Shown piece after piece: positions 32,811-40,854 of a DNA stretch of 64,000 bases. Every line of letters begins with the position of its first letter. The first letter of the stretch is position 1. A program made the position numbers and the translations under genes. This DNA is from a bacterium (GTDB taxonomy: Bacteria > Bacillota_I > Bacilli_A > Izemoplasmatales > Izemoplasmataceae): NCBI GenBank assembly GCA_018400875.1, contig JAGYLV010000002.1, positions 1-64,000 of the forward strand. Direction: 5' to 3'. The notes beneath the pieces were generated by a model that was given only the letters and a program-made list of their open reading frames with translations, ran no database searches and was not told the origin of the DNA.

Positions 32811-32853
32811 AACGCCTCCTCATTCAAACTATACAACGACGTTTAAATTTTAC

Positions 32854-33381
32854 TTACTGAAATATTTGACGGTTTTTAACGAAATATTCAATGCCTGAAA
32901 CCACGGTTAAAACCACGGCGACATAATACAAGATAAGTCCGATATCTACGATGGTGATAAAGATTAAAGTCATCGCCACTAAGGTCACAAACGTTTTAGC
33001 TTTGCCCAGCTGACCGGCGGCAATCACGATGCCTTTTTGCACCGCAAGTAACCGAACCCCCGTTACCATAAATTCACGGGCCACAATTAAAAATACACTC
33101 CAAAGCGGTACCAGCGTCATCTCTTGTAAGATGAGAAGCGCGAGTAACACTAAAAGTTTATCCGCCAGTGGATCTAAAAACTTACCCACGGTCGTCACCA
33201 TGTCGTATTTACGCGCAATGAAGCCATCTAAAAAGTCCGTAAACGATGCAAACACAAAGGTTCCCACAAATAAATATGTCCAAAGATTGAGGGCTTCAGG
33301 CTCAGGATTTAAAAGGTAAAACACCAGCAATAACGGTAATAATAAGACACGTATCGCGGTGAGTGTATTCGGAATATTCAT
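32854..33381 (-). CDS. pgsA: CDP-diacylglycerol-glycerol-3-phosphate 3-phosphatidyltransferase
   Basis: Commits CDP-diacylglycerol to phosphatidylglycerol synthesis at the membrane. The CDP-alcohol phosphotransferase motif D-G-x2-A-R-x8-G-x3-D-x3-D is complete in DGFIARKYDMVTTVGKFLDPLADK at about residues 50-73. Four to five membrane helices, 175 residues, typical of PgsA. It precedes recA as in Bacillus but with its own gap of 43 bases, so coupling to recA is not certain. Confidence 0.93.
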   Translation of the reverse strand: MNIPNTLTAIRVLLLPLLLVFYLLNPEPEALNLWTYLFVGTFVFASFTDFLDGFIARKYDMVTTVGKFLDPLADKLLVLLALLILQEMTLVPLWSVFLIVAREFMVTGVRLLAVQKGIVIAAGQLGKAKTFVTLVAMTLIFITIVDIGLILYYVAVVLTVVSGIEYFVKNRQIFQ

Positions 33382-37596: not shown

Positions 37597-39681
37597 TTAA
37601 GGCCAAAACGCAGGGAGAGAAAGCGTCCACTTAGGTCCGATAATAAAACGTGTCGTCCCATGTACATCGGTTCTAAAAATCTCGATGTCACGGCTTTCTA
37701 AGCGGTCAATGACCTCGTCACTCGGAAAATCAAAGCGGTTGGCATGCGGCAAATTAATCAACGCAATATCCGGATTCACGTGGTCTAAAAAAACATCACT
37801 GGTCGAGCTTTTGGACCCGTGGTGTGAGACTTTTAAAAAATCGATGGCAGGCACCGGGCGTTCAACGAAGTCGGCCTCTCTTAAGGCTTCGATGTCGCCG
37901 GTAAATAAACCGCTCCACCCTTTTCGCTCAAGGGTTACCACCACGGATTGTTCGTTTTTTGACGGATAAGAGCGGGCGGGCAAGTCAAAGGTCAACAAGG
38001 CGTCCCCACACGCTAATGCCTCTGGGATGTTTTCCGGGGTAATGTGATCATCCCACGTGAAATAAGGATCATTCATCAAGGCTTCTATCCCATCGGCGTG
38101 ATCGGCATCATCATGCGTCGTAATGAGGACCTGAAAATGATTAATCCCATGATTTTTGAGATGCGTTTTGAGCGCTTCACTGGTCATTTCTGTCCCCCCA
38201 TCAATTAAGATATTACAGCGGTTGAACGGGGCTTGATATAAAAAACTATCTCCGTCCACATCGAGCACCGATAGGACGGGGTAAAACGCCAGGCTAGACA
38301 CGATAAACCCGGCCGCAATCAACACACTAGAGCCCGTGATTAAGCGATACATTGACCCTTTTGAAGTGATTAAAATGATCACCCATCCGGCGTAGTAAAA
38401 AAGCGCAAAGACGCCAAATGTAAAGGGCACACTCACCGGGATATACACCCACTCATACGCCCAAAGCAACATCGTTTCAAACCCCATGAAAAGTGGATCA
38501 ACGATGACTTCTAAGGCTGGGATAAAAAACGTAATATAAGAAAGCGGAAGTAAATAAAACCCTAAGACGATGACCGCGATGATGTTTAAAAAGATACTGC
38601 TTAAGTTCACACTCCCACTCATCATCATAATCAGCGGAAGCGTAGTCATAAACGCATAGATAGAAACACGCACTGGGGCCCCCTTTAATAAAAGGGTGGG
38701 CGCCATGAGTAGTAAGATTAAAGTCACCGAATAACTGAGTAAAAACGCCGGTTGGTAAACGACATTGGGCGTGATTAATACACTGCCTATAATGAGCAAC
38801 CCCAGTCCATCAAGCGGGGTTAACGTTCCTTTAAAACGCCGGTTTAACTGAATGAAGCCATAGAGTAAACTCGCCCGCATGAGTGAAACTGAAAAATCCG
38901 TCAAAACAAGATAAATCCCTAAAATCCCGCTGATGATCAATAGCCTCAAATCACGTGGGATTTTTTTGAGTATAAGCTCTAATGCCAAAGCTAAAAGCCC
39001 GACATGAAGGCCCGAAACCGCAAAGATATGGGCAATGCCAAGGGCTCGAATTGGGGTGATTAAATCCTCATCAAAACCGTCCGTAGACCCCAGAAAAAAA
39101 GCCGTCATGTAGGGTTTTAATGTGCTGAATTCACGGTCGATGTAGGCTTGCACTTTTTCGGGTAAACGGATATTTGGCGCTTTATAATCGGTGACGTCTA
39201 CGGTCTTCGCATACAATGTCCCGCGGATATTTTGACTTTTCAAATACTTGGATTGATCGAATCCTCCAATCAAACTAGAGGCATTTTCAGGCAGTAACTG
39301 AAAGGTTGCACGTACGGTACTGCCCGGGTTTAAAGGGGCGGTCCCCACATATAAATAAAACGTGCCTTCTGACGTTTTGAGGGTGTGCTTGGTGTCTTCC
39401 ACATGAATGATGGTGCCTTCTTTCGGCACGGTGATGGGACGCATCTCTAACACGCCCCAGTGTACAACTAAAAGTACACTGAGCACGAAGCCCCATCTCA
39501 ACAATCGTTTATCCAGGCGAACCAGCCACATTCCAATGATTGGTAAAAGTCCCCATAAAAAAAGGTGCGTTAAAGCAAGCCGGACGATAAAAAGCGTCAC
39601 CCCTAATGCAATGTAATCACCACTACGGGGTAATGAGCGTTTCAATGTTTGCAAGCGTCTGCGCTCCAATTCCTGGGACAT
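37597..39681 (-). CDS. comEC: DNA internalization channel protein ComEC/Rec2
   Basis: Polytopic membrane protein thought to carry ssDNA across the membrane during transformation. N-terminal helices and an OB-like DUF4131 region (residues 20-190), a competence domain with HIFAVSGLHVGLLALALE near residue 225, then a metallo-beta-lactamase-like domain with TTHDDADHADGIEAL near 530 and SHHGSKSSTSD near 640. The ORF track adds 76 codons that overlap comEA; I start at ATG 39681 (MSQELERRR), though TTG at 39654 with GGAG upstream is also possible. Length about 694 residues. It overlaps comEA by about 59 bases. Confidence 0.92.
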   Translation of the reverse strand: MSQELERRRLQTLKRSLPRSGDYIALGVTLFIVRLALTHLFLWGLLPIIGMWLVRLDKRLLRWGFVLSVLLVVHWGVLEMRPITVPKEGTIIHVEDTKHTLKTSEGTFYLYVGTAPLNPGSTVRATFQLLPENASSLIGGFDQSKYLKSQNIRGTLYAKTVDVTDYKAPNIRLPEKVQAYIDREFSTLKPYMTAFFLGSTDGFDEDLITPIRALGIAHIFAVSGLHVGLLALALELILKKIPRDLRLLIISGILGIYLVLTDFSVSLMRASLLYGFIQLNRRFKGTLTPLDGLGLLIIGSVLITPNVVYQPAFLLSYSVTLILLLMAPTLLLKGAPVRVSIYAFMTTLPLIMMMSGSVNLSSIFLNIIAVIVLGFYLLPLSYITFFIPALEVIVDPLFMGFETMLLWAYEWVYIPVSVPFTFGVFALFYYAGWVIILITSKGSMYRLITGSSVLIAAGFIVSSLAFYPVLSVLDVDGDSFLYQAPFNRCNILIDGGTEMTSEALKTHLKNHGINHFQVLITTHDDADHADGIEALMNDPYFTWDDHITPENIPEALACGDALLTFDLPARSYPSKNEQSVVVTLERKGWSGLFTGDIEALREADFVERPVPAIDFLKVSHHGSKSSTSDVFLDHVNPDIALINLPHANRFDFPSDEVIDRLESRDIEIFRTDVHGTTRFIIGPKWTLSLPAFWP

Positions 39682-40141
39682 CGAGAAGATCTTCGATGGT
39701 TTTAAATGGGCGTTCACTGCGGGCTTGTATGATCGCTTCGGCCGTGGCGGGTCCAATACCTGGAAGGGTTTCGAGTTCACTGGCCGTCGCGTGATTAATC
39801 GATATTTTCCCGTCATCGTTGGATAAGTGTTCATTTTTTGAAGGAATGAGGATGAGCCAGCCATCGTAGACGGTTTGGGTTTGATTGAGCGTGGATATAT
39901 CGGCTTCATCCGTCAGTCCGCCCGCCCGGTGAATCACGTCAAATAAGCGGCTACTATCGGCCACCTTATAAATGCCGGGGGTATTGACTTCCCCGCGTAA
40001 TTCCACATACACAAAAGCCTGAGCGGGCGGCGAATTAAGCACCGGCTCTTCAGAAGGGGAAGTGAAACGGTCAAATCTCAGACCAATGACCACCAACCAA
40101 CACGCCCCGGCAATGATGAGTGGCCACTTCTTTTTCAGCAT
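39623..40141 (-). CDS. comEA: Competence DNA-receptor protein ComEA
   Basis: Membrane-anchored DNA-binding protein for transformation. One N-terminal membrane helix (MLKKKWPLIIAGACWLVV), an SLBB domain (YVELRGEVNTPGIYKV, residues 45-105), and a C-terminal double helix-hairpin-helix domain (INHATASELETLPGIGPATA and LLDVPGIGAQTL). The ATG at 40141 is preferred over an ATG six codons upstream because AAGGAG lies 9 bases before it. That ribosome-binding site is part of the 3' arm of a perfect hairpin (see next feature). About 172 residues, family-typical. Confidence 0.95.
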   Translation of the reverse strand: MLKKKWPLIIAGACWLVVIGLRFDRFTSPSEEPVLNSPPAQAFVYVELRGEVNTPGIYKVADSSRLFDVIHRAGGLTDEADISTLNQTQTVYDGWLILIPSKNEHLSNDDGKISINHATASELETLPGIGPATAEAIIQARSERPFKTIEDLLDVPGIGAQTLANIETLITP

Positions 40142-40187
40142 AAAAAAACACTCCTTCATGCAAACGATACACGCTTAGGAGTGTTTT
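40142..40187 (-). terminator. Terminator/attenuator hairpin that includes the comEA ribosome-binding site
   Basis: On the minus strand AAAACACTCCT and AGGAGTGTTTT are perfect 11-base arms around a 21-nt loop, directly followed by TTT and the comEA ATG. It starts at the yqeM stop codon. It can act as an intrinsic terminator after yqeM. When not terminating, it buries the AAGGAG of comEA. Confidence 0.75.
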
Positions 40188-40854
40188 ACTTTTTTAAAAT
40201 ATAGATGGTTCGCTCGGCCCAATGAACCCTATCCAATACATTAAAAGGATGAAGTAATGTTTCAATGGTGGAGGAATCAAAGCTTCGTTGATTGAGCGTA
40301 GTCACGGTATCTTGGCGTTTTAAGCGATGTCTGAAACTACACGGATAAGGGCCTTTAGAAATGCGCCATGTTAAGGTTTCATCATGCCAGCTTAAGGTTT
40401 CTTGATAGCCGATCATCGTGTCAATGTAATCACAATTTAAGGTGTCGAAAAAGACCATGCCTCCGGGCGCTAATGCTTCATGCATATGCGTGAAAACTTG
40501 GGCAAATTGATCCAAGGTTTCTAAATGATTGATCACATCAAAGCCCATCACGATATGATCCATCTTAAAAGGAATCGGGTCTAAAATATTATGCGGCGCC
40601 ACATCGATGTGACACTTTGCGGCTTTCGCATTGGTCTGCGCTAGGCTTAAAAAATCCGGGCTAATATCTGTGGCTAATACCTCAAAACCTTTTTGTGCGA
40701 GTTCAATCCCAATAAAGGCGGGACCACACCCCATCTCTAAGAACTTCCCATCCCGGAGATGCGTTTGAATGATGTCTAAATAAAACTGTTTTAAATCGTG
40801 GTCGTAATGTTGCGCATAAAAGTCATAAAAAAGCGCATACGGGTCATGATTCAT
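40186..40854 (-). CDS. yqeM: SAM-dependent methyltransferase, YqeM type
   Basis: Class I methyltransferase of about 222 residues. SAM-binding motif I FLEMGCGPAFIGIELA at residue 40, motif II ATDISPDFLS, and a DVINHLET segment near residue 105. Position between rsfS and comEA matches B. subtilis yqeM. The ORF-track start lies 19 codons upstream in rsfS; I choose ATG 40854 (MNHDPYALFYDFYAQHYD), which gives the family N-terminus and an 11-base overlap with rsfS. Methyl acceptor unknown. Confidence 0.85.
   Translation of the reverse strand: MNHDPYALFYDFYAQHYDHDLKQFYLDIIQTHLRDGKFLEMGCGPAFIGIELAQKGFEVLATDISPDFLSLAQTNAKAAKCHIDVAPHNILDPIPFKMDHIVMGFDVINHLETLDQFAQVFTHMHEALAPGGMVFFDTLNCDYIDTMIGYQETLSWHDETLTWRISKGPYPCSFRHRLKRQDTVTTLNQRSFDSSTIETLLHPFNVLDRVHWAERTIYILKK

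Follow-up and report, generated by a model that had tools for sequence, protein, structure and literature searches.

How can DNA-uptake genes be expressed when the first of them lies directly behind a hairpin that resembles a transcription terminator and buries its ribosome-binding site? The window, the whole 64-kb stretch of DNA analyzed here, is part of a 0.66-Mb incomplete genome and carries on its minus strand, in this order, genes for a YqeH-like GTPase, an HD-domain protein in the YqeK position, RsfS, a YqeM-like methyltransferase, ComEA, ComEC, and HolA. The comEA gene (39623-40141, start codon ATG at 40139-40141) encodes a protein with HHH and SLBB domains that matches TIGR00426 above the cut-off. 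An in-frame upstream ATG at 40159 (MKECFFM...) sits inside the hairpin; because of the Shine-Dalgarno spacing, the ATG at 40141 is favored as the start.

The hairpin described in the initial annotation is real. It consists of 11 perfect base pairs around a 21-nt loop (40156-40176), with the 5' arm AAAACACTCCT at 40177-40187 and the 3' arm AGGAGTGTTTT, which contains the Shine-Dalgarno sequence, at 40145-40155; seven T (40142-40148) follow the GC part of the stem and abut the comEA ATG. As had been stated, it begins at the yqeM stop: the TAA (40188-40186) shares two bases with the start of the 5' arm. The placement of AAGGAG in the 3' arm was correct for AGGAG (40155-40151), while the two preceding A belong to the loop. 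Read 5' to 3' on the minus strand from 40191 to 40139, the junction is AAGTAA-AACACTCCTAAGCGTG-TATCGT-TTGCAT-GA-AGGAG-TG-TTTTTTT-ATG. The GC-containing stem CACTCCT/AGGAGTG, with T7 following at once, has the sequence of an intrinsic terminator. For the coding-strand RNA, the folding energy is -24.4 kcal/mol (z = -2.87, matched by none of 200 shuffles), with an inner stem added within the loop; the plus strand folds less well (z = -2.1). In the junction's own read-through RNA, the fold leaves the Shine-Dalgarno sequence unpaired at 0.02, so that it is paired as in ribosome-binding-site hairpins of the sigG and IS10 type. Counting perfect inverted repeats over the whole window (arms of at least 11, loops of 3-30) gave 9, compared with 0-2 in 8 dinucleotide shuffles; the yqeM-comEA hairpin is the sole long-loop repeat among them. 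Loop lengths in the remaining eight are 3-8 nt, and several of these are ordinary terminator-like structures. A terminator scan restricted to 3-8 nt loops does not list the yqeM-comEA hairpin.

The initial annotation had proposed that conservation of the pairing be examined in related genomes, and there the pairing holds. We gathered comEA upstream regions from the order (n = 45), excluding the f2 genomes, which have multi-repeat ComEA proteins. Most relatives differ in sequence and share the same plan of a stem, a Shine-Dalgarno sequence in the 3' arm, a T-run, and the ATG, with T-richness accompanying the hairpin; this shared plan, together with the fold, supports both the terminator-like appearance and the burial of the comEA Shine-Dalgarno sequence. 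The two arms co-vary through compensatory changes, and native pairs form duplexes of -13.3 kcal/mol on average versus -8.3 +/- 0.43 kcal/mol when arms are exchanged among genomes. None of 10,000 arm-swap permutations matched the native pairing energy, a figure that is not a formal probability, as related genomes are non-independent. Taken as sequence comparisons, these data argue strongly that the pairing is under selection.

The hairpin also follows its genomic context. Of 31 genomes with the end of a co-directional gene no more than 70 nt away, 29 have it, as opposed to 3 of 14 without such a gene (Fisher p = 2e-6). The two exceptions among the 31 are L040, where a shorter, tight-looped hairpin (AATGTTCCT/AGGAGCATT) was overlooked by the automatic measure, and L074, where a separate terminator-like repeat lies 5' of the promoter; in L059, as in L074, such a repeat upstream of the promoter replaces the hairpin plan. 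Upstream stop codons lie 39-60 nt before the comEA start in most relatives, and in the window the 5' arm starts within the yqeM stop codon, as would suit translational coupling, in which ribosomes finishing at that stop melt the 5' arm and comEA translation follows that of yqeM. Yet the upstream gene changes among lineages (yqeM or a shorter ORF) and the architecture stays, the T-run gives the structure the look of a terminator as well, and the promoter motif described below supplies comEA with a start of its own; we consider coupling quite improbable.

This motif, first seen in an alignment by eye and then recovered by unsupervised search, runs through the hairpin. A two-block EM search of the 45 comEA upstream regions returned aaAAGnAa and nGTATnAT, with 84% of the weight at a spacing of 22-23 nt (start to start) and a log-likelihood of 261 versus 51-61 on shuffled input. 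It can be summarized as AAGNAA, 16-17 nt, and (G)TATNAT, with some 6 nt between its end and the Shine-Dalgarno sequence. In the window, the -35-like hexamer AAGTAA (40186-40191) overlaps the yqeM stop, the anti-Shine-Dalgarno 5' arm occupies the -35/spacer region, and, after a 16-nt spacer, the -10-like hexamer TATCGT (40164-40169) lies inside the hairpin loop. This site scores 17.1 bits, the third highest value in the 64 kb, and it alone among the top three precedes a Shine-Dalgarno sequence and a start; a sigma-70 consensus scan of the region found 24 sites against 21.7 expected and none at the yqeM-comEA junction. The -10 hexamer overlaps an apical loop in 37 of the 42 hairpins compared, so that a start just past the loop would transcribe the 3' arm alone. 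In four genomes (L074, L080, L082, and L083), three of which belong to family f3, the best placement of the motif stays below 7 bits. The -10 hexamer is off consensus in the window's genus (TATCGT, and TATGGT in two relatives), and the comEA promoter there may therefore be weak.

A model trained on comEA alone also finds the motif in front of recA. At a threshold of at least 9 bits, 26 of 30 genomes (87%) carry it there versus 6 of 221 control genes (2.7%), and at 13 bits or more the values are 73% of the 30 genomes versus 0% of the 221 control gene starts. The site in the window (32828-32855, minus strand) reads AAGTAA (32855-32850), 16 nt, and TATAGT (32833-32828), with no strong hairpin. 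The strict pattern AAGNAAN{16,17}KTATYATN{4,8}GAGGNG has 22 matches in 49 genomes versus 1 in the reversed control, and the genes behind them are comEA, recA, a small gene preceding hpf, and several encoding predicted secreted proteins. In the whole 1.88 Mb of a single-contig relative (G046), comEA and cinA account for two of three exact-pattern matches; as altered patterns give 0-3 matches, this result is weak by itself. Scanning the whole AT-rich genome of G046 with the PWM gave no better result than column-shuffled controls did, because the motif itself is AT-rich. The motif is thus common to comEA, recA, cinA (in one genome), and the gene in the comFC position discussed below. Since it persists without the hairpin, at recA and at comEA genes lacking an upstream gene, it behaves like a promoter at the DNA level rather than an RNA feature. 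We infer that it is a promoter with a start near 40157, as placed by comparison; the distance from -10 to +1 predicts a start within 40155-40159 and, with it, a leader of about 16 nt that would begin at the Shine-Dalgarno arm.

These findings bear directly on the switch proposed in the initial annotation, according to which comEA would be transcribed by read-through from yqeM, with an RNA or protein bound to the loop opening both the terminator and the Shine-Dalgarno sequence. The stem, the T-run, and the buried Shine-Dalgarno sequence are all conserved, as such a mechanism would have it. The conserved loop sequence, however, belongs to a two-part motif of fixed spacing, which is also seen without a hairpin at recA and at comEA genes lacking an upstream gene, and an Rfam search of the window at the gathering threshold returned one tRNA only and no riboswitch or known cis-regulatory RNA family. 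A binding site in the loop is not supported, and neither is a need for read-through to transcribe comEA-comEC-holA, since the promoter-like motif conserved in the loop has a predicted start of its own. The initial annotation had itself named a start within 40142-40180 as evidence against its switch; the predicted start at about 40157 falls in that interval, and the hairpin therefore makes more sense as a shield of comEA from transcription upstream than as a switch acting after initiation. We regard the switch as very improbable. The symmetric placement of the inverted repeat about the -10 box could also suggest that a DNA-binding regulator uses it as a dyad operator. An operator would keep its sequence, whereas the arms vary widely among genomes with only the pairing kept, which makes this reading extremely improbable.

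The main rival is that the yqeM operon simply ends in a plain terminator, which overlaps the comEA promoter through genome compactness, with burial of the Shine-Dalgarno sequence as a by-product of no regulatory value. That the hairpin depends on whether a gene lies close upstream fits this explanation, as do L059 and L074, with their separate terminator-like repeats. A near upstream gene is also found at recA in 29 of 30 genomes, but there the hairpin is weak and the T-run absent, so that a hairpin is not placed at every junction. Median Shine-Dalgarno pairing is -7.6 at recA, with 3.0 T per last 10 nt, compared with -17.1 and 6.7 at comEA; 12 of 29 recA sites pass a loose cut-off of -9.5, and the contrast is therefore one of degree. 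Furthermore, the Shine-Dalgarno sequence serves as the 3' arm not only at comEA but also at the gene in the comFC position, where the medians are -21.5 and 5.8. This gene encodes a cysteine-pair protein of 122-131 aa with no Pfam or NCBIfam match, and its position before hpf is what we take, from B. subtilis, to be that of comFC. Among these small proteins (L181-L197), the motif and a strong Shine-Dalgarno hairpin are seen in most genomes. Weighing both sides, we find the plain terminator unlikely.

From the comparisons above, we consider it reasonably probable that the short region between yqeM and comEA insulates the uptake genes and keeps them locked, with the comEA promoter and an intrinsic terminator occupying a single piece of DNA. 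In this scenario, polymerase arriving from yqeK-rsfS-yqeM would transcribe both arms and tend to terminate at the T-run, and any RNA reading through from yqeM would have its comEA Shine-Dalgarno sequence paired, blocking translation of what leaks through. A start at the loop promoter (~40157) would instead yield an RNA with the 3' arm only, without a terminator and with a free Shine-Dalgarno sequence. The products of comEA-comEC-holA would then be made only while the competence promoter is active; the uptake genes would be closed to upstream transcription at two levels, and recA, needed for repair, would be left open. The loop is long for a terminator, which counts against this model. Folding the read-through RNA and the RNA started at the loop side by side was non-discriminating, the Shine-Dalgarno sequence being freed alike in genomes with and without the hairpin.

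Which factor might read this promoter? A gene for a SigH-like sigma factor is present in all members of the genus and in 84 of 90 genomes of the order, within the neighborhood rlmB-sigma-rpmG-secE-nusG (rpmG assigned by position), which we take to be that of sigH in B. subtilis. The best NCBIfam matches of the factor are SigH models, with scores below the cut-offs. In Lactobacillus sakei, comEA is driven by SigH (PMC3364868), as are competence genes in Listeria, with the consensus RMAGGRWWW-N11/12-RRMGAAW (PMC4754846). The motif here, AAAAGNAA...GTATNAT, does not match that consensus: its -35-like AAGNAA is similar to RMAGGRWWW, but the spacing and the -10 TATNAT are different, with no SigH-type GAAT, and the link to SigH is therefore only a lead. 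The sigma factor encoded between rlmB and rpmG-secE-nusG is the likely candidate for the reader. In G000, G002, and G003, the -10 hexamer is TATNGT at both comEA and recA, compared with TATNAT in most relatives. This parallel G at the fifth base hints at one shared factor, although the three species are closely related, and co-evolution of the shift with the sigma factor is possible.

A PilB/ComGA-type ATPase (PF00437) is absent from all four genus genomes (G000-G003) and above the cut-off in 31 of 49 family genomes; as PilB was not found in the genus, DNA uptake may be reduced or degenerate there. The pilB upstream region shows no clear motif, and pilB seems to lie inside an operon. DprA (PF02481) had no match in 49 genomes (our own and 48 of the family), the same search being positive in 11 of 14 control genomes, and it is therefore unusable as a test; the competence-type genes occur without a DprA match in these 49 genomes. 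Three predicted secreted families share the promoter-like motif: PGGKNYL... (L132, L135, L136, L139, L144, and L147), RRFWGW... (L130, L141, L149, and L150), and a family of 423-427 aa (L133, L134, L138, and L148). At the secreted-protein gene L150, a hairpin pairs with the Shine-Dalgarno sequence as well. These families are possible surface parts of the regulon.

The underlying principle is known from other systems. The transposase of IS10 and IS50 is reportedly protected from external promoters, as described by Davis, Simons, and Kleckner in 1985: transcripts from outside fold and bury the ribosome site, and transcripts starting inside do not. The logic is the same, but those are mobile elements and not chromosomal DNA-uptake genes. 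In the phage T4 genes e, soc, and 49, with their early and late transcripts, the promoter lies within the hairpin and the RNA is translatable only if started inside; these are phage late promoters, and we know of no role for a terminator T-run at the T4 genes. In B. subtilis sigG (spoIIIG), a large leader hairpin was proposed to block translation of RNA reading through from the upstream operon, and RNA that starts at the promoter of sigG itself is unable to form it (PMC5942855). The likeness lies in a hairpin that blocks read-through and would be absent from own-promoter RNA, with the start position here predicted by motif comparison; sigG, however, is a sporulation gene, whereas here a T-run closes the stem ahead of the start codon, the loop holds the -10 box, and the arrangement recurs at competence genes across the order. 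The SigH/ComX regulons of L. sakei (PMC3364868), Listeria (PMC4754846), Staphylococcus aureus (PMC3486894), and streptococci share the sigma locus and a target set of comEA, comF-type, and recombination genes, but here the -10 TATNAT and spacing diverge from RRMGAAW at N11-12, no DprA was found in 49 genomes, and the sigma assignment is a candidate one. What appears from these comparisons to be new is that the hairpin is fused with a terminator and has the -10 box in its loop, a combination that occurs at two uptake loci and in more than one family. We found in the open-access literature no description of such an architecture for competence genes and none of a competence regulon for uncultured Tenericutes.

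If our reading is correct, one short DNA stretch serves as terminator for the preceding gene, as comEA promoter, and as a lock on the ribosome site, and DNA uptake is tied strictly to its own promoter in these compact genomes. A wider proposal, which we advance tentatively and as somewhat short of probable, is that all across a Tenericutes order the standard lock of uptake genes is a promoter in the loop of a Shine-Dalgarno-burying terminator, that a SigH-like competence sigma factor reads this promoter at a sequence that has diverged, and that the genes so controlled form the lineage's first defined competence regulon. For a competence regulon of uncultured Tenericutes, the analysis would supply a specific promoter sequence together with a list of genes, and a testable link to SigH. 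Judging from the predicted architecture, it is probably the firing of the promoter in the loop alone that turns on DNA uptake, and not leakage from the preceding gene.
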